From NCBI RefSeq assembly GCF_020524285.1, contig NZ_JAIVKX010000010.1:186001-250000 (forward strand): a stretch of 64,000 nt of DNA, given 5' to 3'. The notes under the pieces were generated by a model. The model had not been told where the DNA came from. It made no database searches and saw only the letters and a program-made list of their open reading frames with translations. The position numbers and the translations under genes were made by a program. This document shows, piece after piece, positions 1,442 through 15,372 of the stretch (position 1 is its first letter; each line of letters begins with the position of its first letter). The stretch comes from Alloyangia pacifica. Lineage in GTDB: Bacteria > Pseudomonadota > Alphaproteobacteria > Rhodobacterales > Rhodobacteraceae.

Positions 1442-1499
1442 GGGGCAAGGTCCTGAGTTGCGCGGTCCCCGGGGAAAGTCGGGGATTTGAGGTCTATAT

Positions 1500-1515
1500 A
1501 TTCTGAAAATAGAAT
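1500..1515. promoter_or_regulatory. ATTC-N8-GAAT dyad, candidate SqrR/BigR-type operator of the SulP gene
   Basis: The sequence reads ATTC, then eight bases, then GAAT, in an AT-rich patch between the SQR-fusion stop and the SulP start. The inner bases extend the dyad to ATTCT/AGAAT. This is the consensus I recall for the persulfide-sensing ArsR-family repressors SqrR and BigR. A second copy with identical outer arms and spacing precedes the SQR fusion at 3314-3329. Confidence 0.6.
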
Positions 1516-1550
1516 TTGTGAAGGGCGAAACTCATGTTCCCTGCGATTCA

Positions 1551-1578
1551 GCATGGGCGGAACAATGTCCGCCCATGC
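1551..1578 (-). terminator. GC-rich hairpin after the SQR-fusion gene
   Basis: A perfect 11-bp stem (1551-1561 with 1568-1578) and a 6-base loop sit 24 bases after the stop codon of the SQR fusion and before the SulP operator. There is no clear U-tract on the minus strand, so it may attenuate or stabilise transcripts rather than act as a full Rho-independent terminator. Confidence 0.45.
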
Positions 1579-1601
1579 CTTTCATTTCCAGAAAAAGGTT
1601 T

Positions 1602-3275
1602 TCAGTACGCCGTGACAGGCTCGGGTTTGGCCATCCACTCCTTCCCGCGCAGCATGGCCTTCCAGTAGACCGGTGGCAGGACCTGCTCCTTGAGCAGCCA
1701 GGCGGCACGCGTCGGCTTGGTTCCGTCGATCAGCCATTTCGGGAAGCTTGGCAGCAGCGCCCCGCCGTAGCCGAACTCGGCGAGCACGATCTTGCCCCGT
1801 TCAACGGTCAGCGGGCAGGAACCGTAGCCGTTGTAGAGCGCGGCGGGCGACCTGCCGTCGATGTCCGCCGCCACGTTCTCGGCCACGACAGGAGCCTGCA
1901 TCCGCGCCGCCGCGGCGGTCTTGGCATTGGGCGCGTTCATAACGTCGCCGAGGCTCCAGATATTGTCGTAGCTCTTGTGGCGCAGGGTGCCCTGGTCGAC
2001 ATCCACCCAGCCCGCGGCATCGGCCAGCGGCGAGACCTTGATGAAGTCGGGCGCGACCTGCGGCGGGCAGACGTGCATCATGTCGAAGTCGACGGTCACC
2101 TCGGTCGCTTCGGTATCGGGCTTGGCGACCTTGAAGGTCGCCTTGCGGGCAGGGCCGTCGACCGCCACGAGGTTGTGGAAGAAGTTCAGCTTCGCGCGGT
2201 ATTTCTCGATGTAGCTTTCCAGCGCGGGAACGTAGTCCTTCACCCCGAAGAGCACTCCGCCGGCGTTCATGAACTCGATCTCGATGCGCGGCAGCACCCC
2301 GGTGCGGAACCAGTGATCGCCCGAAAGGTAGAGCGCCTTCTGCGGCGCGCCGGCGCATTTGATCGGCATCGGCGGCTGGGTGAAGACGGCGCGGCCGCTT
2401 TTCAGCCCTTTCACCAGCTCCCAGGTATACGGCGCGAGGTCGTAGCGGTAGTTCGAGGTGACGCCGTTCTTGCCCAGCGTCTCGACGAGCCCTTCGACCT
2501 TGTGCCAGTCGAGTTTCAGGCCGGGGCAGACGATCAGCCGGTCGTATTTCAGCACACGGCAGCCATCCAGGATTACGGCGTTGTCCGCGGGCTCGAAAGC
2601 GGCGACCGCGGCCTTGATCCAATGCACGCCGCGCGGGATCAGGCTGCCCATGGTGCGGGCGGTGGTCTGCGGTTCGAAGACGCCGCCGCCGACCATGGTC
2701 CAGCCCGGCTGGTAGTAGTGGATGTCGGCGGGGTCGAGCAGGGCGATGTTCAGCTCGGGCTTGCGCGCCTTGAGGCTCGCCGAGACGGCAATGCCCGCCG
2801 CGCCGCCGCCGACCACCACCACGTCGAACTTCGCATCGCCGGTGTCGGTCGGGGTCTTGCCGCCGTTGACGATGCGCCGGACGACGCCCGCCATGTCGTA
2901 GCCCGCCTGCTTGGTGGCTGCGAGGATATCTGCGGGCGGCAGGCCGCCGGCCTGGCTCAGCGACCAGAGCGTGGCCGAGCGCGTGCCGCTGCGGCAGTAG
3001 GCCAGCACCGGGCCCGGCAGCTCGCGCAGGGCCTTGCCGAAGGCCACGGCGTCGGCGTCCTGCACCTTGCCGGCGACGACGGGGATGTAGCGCGCCTCGA
3101 GCCCGGCCTGTTTCGCGGCGGCCTCGATCTCTTCGAAGTTCGGCTGATCCGCGCCCTCGCCGTCGGGCCGGTTGCAGATGATGGCGCGGTAGCCGGCCTC
3201 GGCGATCCCGGCCAGGTGTGCGGCGGTGATCTGCGGCGAGGCGGCGATGTCGTCGGTGATCTTGCGAATGTCCAC
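1602..3275 (-). CDS. DUF442 (beta-lactamase-hydrolase-like phosphatase fold) fused to sulfide:quinone oxidoreductase
   Basis: Two-domain, 557-residue protein predicted to oxidise sulfide and handle the resulting persulfide. Residues 1-140 are a DUF442/TIGR01244 domain with the Cys-loop YCRSGTRS at 93-100. Residues 150-557 are an FAD-dependent type II SQR-like oxidoreductase with the dinucleotide motif VVGGGAAG near 154-161, the KCAGAPQKALYL motif holding one redox Cys, and a second Cys in MHVCPPQ. The late motif reads GDVMNAPN, where human SQOR has GDC. The start chosen is GTG at 3275, with a good GGAGGA ribosome site at 3283-3288; an in-frame TTG at 3320 would overlap the operator. The gene is separated from SulP by a hairpin and an operator. 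Function is confident at family level; the catalytic Cys pairing is uncertain. Confidence 0.9.
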   Translation of the reverse strand: MDIRKITDDIAASPQITAAHLAGIAEAGYRAIICNRPDGEGADQPNFEEIEAAAKQAGLEARYIPVVAGKVQDADAVAFGKALRELPGPVLAYCRSGTRSATLWSLSQAGGLPPADILAATKQAGYDMAGVVRRIVNGGKTPTDTGDAKFDVVVVGGGAAGIAVSASLKARKPELNIALLDPADIHYYQPGWTMVGGGVFEPQTTARTMGSLIPRGVHWIKAAVAAFEPADNAVILDGCRVLKYDRLIVCPGLKLDWHKVEGLVETLGKNGVTSNYRYDLAPYTWELVKGLKSGRAVFTQPPMPIKCAGAPQKALYLSGDHWFRTGVLPRIEIEFMNAGGVLFGVKDYVPALESYIEKYRAKLNFFHNLVAVDGPARKATFKVAKPDTEATEVTVDFDMMHVCPPQVAPDFIKVSPLADAAGWVDVDQGTLRHKSYDNIWSLGDVMNAPNAKTAAAARMQAPVVAENVAADIDGRSPAALYNGYGSCPLTVERGKIVLAEFGYGGALLPSFPKWLIDGTKPTRAAWLLKEQVLPPVYWKAMLRGKEWMAKPEPVTAY

Positions 3276-3313
3276 GAGGTGTCCTCCCAACTCGATTCGC
3301 AAACAGCATACAC

Positions 3314-3329
3314 ATTCCAAAATGAGAAT
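3314..3329. promoter_or_regulatory. ATTC-N8-GAAT dyad, candidate SqrR/BigR-type operator of the SQR fusion
   Basis: ATTC and GAAT arms separated by exactly eight bases, about 40 bp upstream of the GTG start of the SQR fusion. It has the same arms and spacing as the site before the SulP gene. The position suits repression of the leftward promoter. No SqrR-like regulator gene is in the window. Confidence 0.62.
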
Positions 3330-3392: not shown

Positions 3393-3429
3393 CGCAAAAG
3401 AAAAACGCCGCCCCGAGGGACGGCGTTTT
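3393..3429 (-). terminator. Rho-independent terminator after rpmE
   Basis: A 9-bp stem (3402-3410 with 3421-3429) is followed on the minus strand by a T-rich run (TTTTTCTTTT). It closes the rplS-rpmE transcript. Its A/T flanks on both sides could also let it work for rightward transcripts. Confidence 0.85.
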
Positions 3430-3451
3430 CCGAAATCCGGAAGGGATGGGA

Positions 3452-15036: not shown

Positions 15037-15372
15037 TCAGGCCGGATCGTCCGTCTTCAGCTCGACCTGAAGGAACCGCTCGAAGGCGTCGAGGTTGATC
15101 GGCTCGAACTGGCCGAAACCTTGCATCCAGACCGAGGCTTCGCGCAGCGCATCCGGCTCCAGCTTGCACCATTTCACCCGGCCGCGCTTCTCCTGGCTGA
15201 TCAGCCCGGCCGCAGCGAGGATCGCGAGGTGCTTGGAGATCGCCGCGAGCGACATCTCGAAGGGCTCCGCGACATCGGTCACCGCCATGTCATCCTCGAG
15301 CAGCATGGCGAGGATGCGCCGCCGCGTGGGGTCGGCCAGGGCGGCGAAGACGGTGTCGAGATCGGGTTGCAT
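15037..15372 (-). CDS. ArsR family transcriptional regulator
   Basis: A 111-residue winged-helix repressor. The motif ALADPTRRRILAMLLEDDMAVTDVAEPFEMSLAAISKHLAILAAAGLI (residues 11-58) is typical of the SdpR-like subgroup. It has one Cys (KWCKLEP), so it lacks the Cys pairs of ArsR, SmtB or SqrR sensors. A near-perfect 24-base dyad lies 60 bases upstream and could be its operator. It is convergent with the EamA gene and divergent from atpI. Confidence 0.9.
   Translation of the reverse strand: MQPDLDTVFAALADPTRRRILAMLLEDDMAVTDVAEPFEMSLAAISKHLAILAAAGLISQEKRGRVKWCKLEPDALREASVWMQGFGQFEPINLDAFERFLQVELKTDDPA

Follow-up and report, generated by a model that had tools for sequence, protein, structure and literature searches.

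The same short palindrome stands upstream of a gene for a sulfide:quinone oxidoreductase (SQR) with a fused BLH domain (blh-sqr) and upstream of the SulP permease gene that follows it (sulP), and the question that this locus raises is whether one regulator acts at both places and which regulator this may be. Two ATTC-N8-GAAT boxes had been reported in the first-pass annotation of the window (the whole 64-kb stretch of DNA analysed here), and a pattern search across the entire window bore this out: both have exact arms and an 8-bp spacer (ATTCTGAAAATAGAAT at 1500-1515 and ATTCCAAAATGAGAAT at 3314-3329), and a third exact match is absent within the 64 kb. The claim that each box lies directly upstream of a sulfur gene on the minus strand holds too, as the distances are 58 bp to the ATG of sulP and 38 bp to the GTG of blh-sqr. 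The chance expectation for an exact box in the window is 0.47, and at least two were present in 8 of 100 shuffles; when up to one mismatch is allowed, the window has four matches and 11.8 are expected. The number of boxes, taken alone, is weak evidence for operators; their placement together with their conservation argues strongly for the predicted function. The features of the window are listed in the table.

Features of the blh-sqr and sulP region, in window coordinates
Feature	Position	Strand	Remarks
sulP, SulP-family anion permease with C-terminal STAS domain, 585 aa	1..1441	-	PF00916 and PF01740
Promoter-like frame around the sulP operator, CTTCACAAATTC-N8-GAATATATA	1495..1523	-	Conserved frame; extended-pattern match
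Predicted operator of sulP, ATTC-N8-GAAT	1500..1515	-	Exact match; kept in the sqr-sulP gap at 10/73 loci
Strong stem-loop right after the sqr stop codon, without U-run on the sqr strand	1550..1579	-	z -4.68
blh-sqr, BLH/DUF442 sulfur-transferase domain and type II (SQOR-like) sulfide:quinone oxidoreductase	1602..3275	-	557 aa
Predicted operator of blh-sqr, ATTC-N8-GAAT	3314..3329	-	Exact match; kept upstream of sqr at 14/80 loci
Terminator-like hairpin with U-rich tail after rpmE	3396..3431, approximate	-	z -4.89

The blh-sqr gene starts with a GTG codon (3275-3273), and a profile search identified a BLH_phosphatase domain (PF04273) and a Pyr_redox_2 domain. The BLH domain passes the sulfur transferase model TIGR01244 (132.4 bits, cut-off 85.85) and its CxxGxR-type loop is present in 160 of 164 homologues. 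The top PDB matches of the SQR part are mitochondrial sulfide:quinone oxidoreductases (E=3e-95) and both catalytic cysteine columns of type II SQR are kept (in 159/164 and 164/164 homologues); we take these cysteines to correspond to Cys201 and Cys379 of the human enzyme. Absence of the second catalytic cysteine had been suspected from a valine that follows GD in 143 of the 164 homologues, and the idea was dropped when counting along the PDB chain placed Cys379 at the SCP cysteine, which all 164 have. By species name, the closest SQR relatives are from Alloyangia pacifica (96%) and Salipiger mangrovisoli (92%), in a listing that may omit the window's own genome.

The start codon of sulP is the ATG at 1441-1439; its 3' end lies beyond the window, and the whole gene spans L037:7685-9442. 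The protein passes TIGR00815 (457.5 bits, cut-off 380.45) and has both the Sulfate_transp and the STAS domain. With gene linkage as the sole guide, its cargo is most likely an anion of the sulfide-oxidation pathway (sulfite, sulfate or thiosulfate), and the direction of transport is probably outward. The upstream neighbour of blh-sqr is rpmE (ribosomal protein L31, identified by eye), and the hairpin after rpmE suggests that blh-sqr has a transcript start of its own. The stem-loop at 1550-1579 may separate the sqr and sulP transcripts. Because there are hairpins both after rpmE and after the sqr stop codon, one transcript each for blh-sqr and sulP is plausible.

Conservation of the boxes was followed in the family: at E<=1e-100, BLH-SQR was detected in 84 of the 295 genomes searched, which sample roughly one genome per genus; 85 loci were retrieved, of which five without the N-terminus were excluded. 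An exact box is present within 200 bp upstream of sqr at 14 of the remaining 80 loci with full N-terminus, and inside the sqr-sulP gap at 10 of 73 loci; both counts include the window's locus. Every other spacer length from 2 to 19 gave 0-2 loci at either position, and letter-shuffled controls gave a mean of 0.14 loci upstream of sqr and 0.015 in the sqr-sulP gap. Aligned, the sites read CTTTACAAATTC-N8-GAATATATA, and the operator seems to occupy the stretch that separates the promoter elements; the two halves of the frame at sulP would be the -35 and -10 elements. When this extended pattern was searched with up to three mismatches in 15 of the 16 genomes that have sites (G222 omitted), there were ten matches and none for the reversed control; by their coordinates, eight lie at sulP promoters, one at a sqr promoter and one elsewhere (G041:C84). 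On this 4.5-kb contig, two ATTC-N8-GAAT boxes are found in close tandem (L325; G041:C84:3264-3292).

The pair itself is far more widespread than the boxes: at 72/80 and 73/80 loci in two sets, a sulP gene is found no more than 1.5 kb after sqr and in the same orientation; the sets overlap, as 16 of the 80 loci of the second set share identical SQR DNA with the genus-sampled set. In most sampled relatives, the pair stands behind a dioxygenase gene and the box is absent. Where the dioxygenase gene is directly upstream of sqr, exact boxes were found at 0/50 loci of the genus-sampled set and 0/55 loci of the second set; without it, they were found at 16/30 and 20/25, respectively, with about 1.5 kb or less of upstream DNA at 30 of the 85 genus-sampled loci and with 'dioxygenase' assigned from matches to the dioxygenase portion of Blh (369 and 463 bits, under the two-domain cut-off of 625). 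Somewhere in the 6 kb upstream of the dioxygenase-led operons, 7 of the 55 second-set loci have a box. A family search identified a DUF6691/YedE-like gene (L077) and a Crp/Fnr-type regulator gene (L094) further upstream of dioxygenase-led loci, at one locus each, and these neighbours suggest that the dioxygenase-led arrangement is under a different regulator.

SqrR-type repressors with both sensing cysteines, which the first-pass annotation had proposed to look for, exist in the window's genome: the HTH_5 profile has at least eight matches (150 of 172 candidates were scored), and the SqrR-type cysteine pair is present in two of these proteins, which we call SqrR-A and SoxR-like. SqrR-A is encoded by an orphan gene (G000:C3:401142-401468) and the gene of the SoxR-like protein adjoins soxX, soxA and soxB on contig C9. 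Both are ArsR-type proteins with two conserved sensing cysteines, and their first PDB matches are 13ct/6o8k-o (E 8e-34 and 8e-36), with both cysteines aligned; these records are labelled just 'ArsR family' and presumably represent SqrR of Rhodobacter capsulatus (RcSqrR). In a phylogenetic tree, a 100/99 branch separates 30 SqrR-A rows (29 genomes, with the window genome's sequence entered twice) from RcSqrR. This split is sharpened by the way the rows were selected, each for its resemblance to one of two queries. The RcSqrR side includes 20 proteins encoded next to soxV. When BigR and HlyU were added as long-branch outgroups, the SoxR side remained intact (96/99) and SqrR-A formed a clade or a grade. 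SqrR-A thus falls outside the RcSqrR/SoxR clade and is not an orthologue of R. capsulatus SqrR by the measure of a common clade. The putative recognition helices also differ (RQAAVSQMLARLREE in SqrR-A versus RQSAVSQQLSRLRLE in the SoxR-like protein), and the motif RQxAVSQQLxRLRLE in this putative helix is common to the SoxR-like protein and RcSqrR. A box with 0-1 mismatch was not found in the 250 bp at the start of SqrR-A, nor in the soxR-soxV gap. The window has an ArsR gene of its own (15037-15372, minus strand), which sits just upstream of ATP synthase genes (identified by eye); its product has a single cysteine, is not SqrR-type and was rejected as the sensor.

The box pattern had been taken for an operator of SqrR or BigR. 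The SqrR half of this reading agrees with an excerpt of PMC9774250, in which ATTC-N8-GAAT is the deduced site of R. capsulatus SqrR. The BigR half fell away: no tie to BigR was seen, and both repressors miss the cut-off of 155 of the BigR equivalog NF040642 (NCBIfam), with 108.5 bits for SqrR-A and 95.7 bits for the SoxR-like protein.

Genome-wide, there are 23 exact boxes and two matches to the reversed pattern. A site model was built from the aligned sites of the relatives, with the window's own two excluded; it gives the seven best boxes scores of 20.6-44.1 and the other 16 at most 15.8. The neighbours of these top seven of the 23 were annotated: the boxes precede sulP, blh-sqr, a dioxygenase gene (C8:155003), a gene for a YgaP-type protein with PF11127 (YgaP-TM; C8:132223), soxX, soxB and a gene for an RND adaptor (C28:15134). 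A binomial estimate for 6 of 23 boxes at listed genes ranges from 3e-17 to 7e-10, for a post-hoc list taken as 6 to 100 genes. The shared operator that had been proposed for blh-sqr and sulP is supported by the sequence data as a prediction; the predicted regulon is larger than these two genes, with the box before five further ones. A crude coding-frame score for chance boxes was discarded, as four of the seven promoter-linked boxes were flagged along with 13 of the 16 unlinked ones.

The targets outside the window differ in how well they are conserved. YgaP-TM is a transmembrane-domain protein of 67 aa and its gene does not adjoin either SqrR-type gene. In 23 genomes with SqrR-A, 9 of 10 close homologues (60% or more) have an exact box at -51 to -91, and 0 of 2 distant homologues do; in 57 further genomes, three of seven close homologues have an exact box, three have a box with one mismatch and one has neither, and no exact box was found before the four distant homologues. 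The idea that the box is exclusive to SqrR-A was rejected, because it is also found at YgaP-TM in genomes without SqrR-A (exact in 2/5, with one mismatch in 2/5 and neither in 1/5); the SqrR/SoxR group at large probably uses the box. The dioxygenase is weak as a widely conserved member of the regulon: 31 matches were obtained and 30 loci fetched, and only 4 of these 30 have an exact box within 250 bp, with 26 lacking it. Against the NCBIfam Blh model, the C8 dioxygenase scores 462.6 bits (cut-off 625 for the two-domain protein), and only the dioxygenase part is aligned (141-422/423). The sox cluster has one box upstream of soxX (L047:4187-4202) and one just before the likely start of soxB (L047:6513-6528) and may therefore have two internal control points. 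The remaining box (G000:C28:15134-15149; L039:4135-4150) is 27 bp before the RND efflux adaptor gene, and the RND pump may be a conserved SqrR target.

The genome that encodes the RcSqrR query sequence at 100% (G396) serves as a positive control. It has 17 exact boxes, most of which are not tied to sulfur genes; many looked coding or had no clear gene (15 of the 17 were viewed). From the end of one exact box to the gene of an SQR-related flavoprotein, the distance is 14 bp; another exact box precedes a gene for an RND adaptor that is 49% identical to that of the window's genome, about 4.7 kb from sqrR. At the sulfide-quinone reductase gene itself (E=2e-142), the box is imperfect, with one mismatch, and is located about 40 bp upstream of the likely start. 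According to an excerpt of PMC9995734, SQR and a flavin-dependent disulfide reductase are more than 10-fold up with sulfide and upon loss of sqrR.

The distribution of SqrR-A was compared with that of the sites in 80 BLH-SQR genomes (84 less 4), with at least 139 bits required for an SqrR-A call: 75 have an SqrR-type match and 29 have SqrR-A. SqrR-A is present in 15 of the 16 genomes with sites versus 14 of the 64 without (p=1.5e-7, a value inflated by relatedness), and, with the comparison restricted to genomes without upstream dioxygenase gene, in 15/16 versus 9/14 (p=0.07). Mapped onto the SQR tree, the presence of sites requires seven changes and that of SqrR-A eleven. Two genomes, G287 and G198, have both SqrR-A and sites and are nested in a group otherwise without SqrR-A. 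The one genome that has a site and no SqrR-A, G222, has a homologue of the SoxR side only.

These data make it very probable that an SqrR-type persulfide-sensing ArsR repressor of the SqrR/SoxR/BigR group acts at both sites, and we lean towards SqrR-A as the main cognate repressor there. In its reduced form, a repressor dimer would occupy each promoter between its -35 and -10 elements and block blh-sqr and sulP separately. Upon sulfide entry, persulfides and polysulfides would form, sulfur atoms would bridge the two conserved cysteines, and the repressor would leave; excerpts describe a tetrasulfide bridge in the derepression of SqrR (PMC9995734) and sensing of sulfane sulfur through two cysteines by SoxR (PMC10451225). 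BLH-SQR (sulfide to persulfide), the dioxygenase (persulfide to sulfite), the YgaP-type membrane protein and SulP would then be made together. The SoxR-type paralogue probably recognises this box too, at soxX and soxB, and there may be cross-talk. To a fuller version we give an even chance: an orphan SqrR-A lineage, distinct from R. capsulatus SqrR and from SoxR, would run a dispersed sulfide-detoxification regulon in Salipiger-like bacteria, in which BLH-SQR, SulP and the YgaP-type protein each have their own promoter-nested operator, most sampled relatives keep the pair behind a dioxygenase gene without a box, and SulP is the anion exit of the pathway.

Both repressors could also read the one box and share the regulon, a tentative proposal that falls short of an even chance and that is a version of the explanation just given rather than its opposite. 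The identical box at sox and non-sox targets speaks for it, as do the excerpts on other alphaproteobacteria: two related repressors occur in one organism (PMC10451225, PMC12423496), and in Hyphomicrobium denitrificans the repressors sHdrR and SoxR affect 165 and 170 genes, 138 of them in common (PMC12423496). However, the putative recognition helix of SqrR-A differs from that of the SoxR-like protein and the preferences of the two may differ. It is unlikely that the SoxR-type paralogue by the sox genes represses at both window sites while SqrR-A has another job. This would fit the common clade and shared helix motif of the SoxR-like protein and RcSqrR, the box at soxX, at soxB and, in genomes without SqrR-A, at YgaP-TM, and the site in G222, but in 46 of the 80 genomes the SqrR-type homologues do not include SqrR-A, and only one of these 46 has sites, a count confounded by the fact that most are dioxygenase-led. 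It is highly improbable that the palindromes arose by chance as inverted repeats within AT-rich promoters and have no regulator: the 8 in 100 window shuffles with two exact sites and the 16 of 23 genome boxes without a shown promoter link would allow it, but the spacing is specific and the position conserved in other genera, the box recurs at an unlinked third gene (9/10 for YgaP-TM), and the boxes are split by gene arrangement (0/50 versus 16/30 and 0/55 versus 20/25).

For sulfide sensing in a widespread bacterial group, these predictions yield a concrete target list and two candidates for the repressor. In several genera, a SulP transporter shares its predicted regulation with the sulfide-oxidising enzyme; a whole-word literature search, with the SqrR paper of Shimizu 2017 outside its reach, found no paper that names both SqrR and SulP. 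The two wiring states of one gene pair offer an entry to how a detoxification operon was dismantled and rewired.

Among known systems, the SqrR regulon of R. capsulatus has the same ATTC-N8-GAAT box, an ArsR-type dithiol repressor and an SQR target (PMC9774250 and PMC9995734, excerpts), features that are predicted from sequence for the window's genome, and an RND adaptor gene has the box in both genomes. Unlike in R. capsulatus, the SQR here is a type II enzyme joined to a BLH domain, SulP is among the predicted targets, and the favoured repressor SqrR-A is outside the RcSqrR/SoxR clade. The bigR operon of Xylella and Agrobacterium combines a sulfide/persulfide-responsive ArsR repressor, DUF442, a dioxygenase and an anion transporter in one response, as is predicted here; an excerpt of PMC5823870 describes BigR, the sulfur-transferase activity of DUF442 and a TauE-related transporter, and an excerpt of PMC7315123 places yeeE-yedE-pdo2 under BigR control. 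In that operon the dioxygenase carries the DUF442 domain and a TauE-related protein is the transporter, whereas here it is SQR that carries DUF442, the transporter is a SulP, and sqr and sulP each have a predicted operator. E. coli ygaVP has an SqrR-like repressor, YgaV, and, in the region that YgaV binds, a sequence similar to ATTC-N8-GAAT, with none in the YgaV-bound katG promoter (PMC9774250, excerpt); a YgaP-type PF11127 protein is a predicted target here as well, but it is a 67-aa transmembrane-domain protein encoded away from both SqrR-type genes. SoxR of the sox genes in Paracoccus, Pseudaminobacter and Hyphomicrobium is the system of the closest paralogue, and the box is present here at soxX and soxB; unlike in the SoxR/sox systems, the window's blh-sqr and sulP stand outside the sox cluster.
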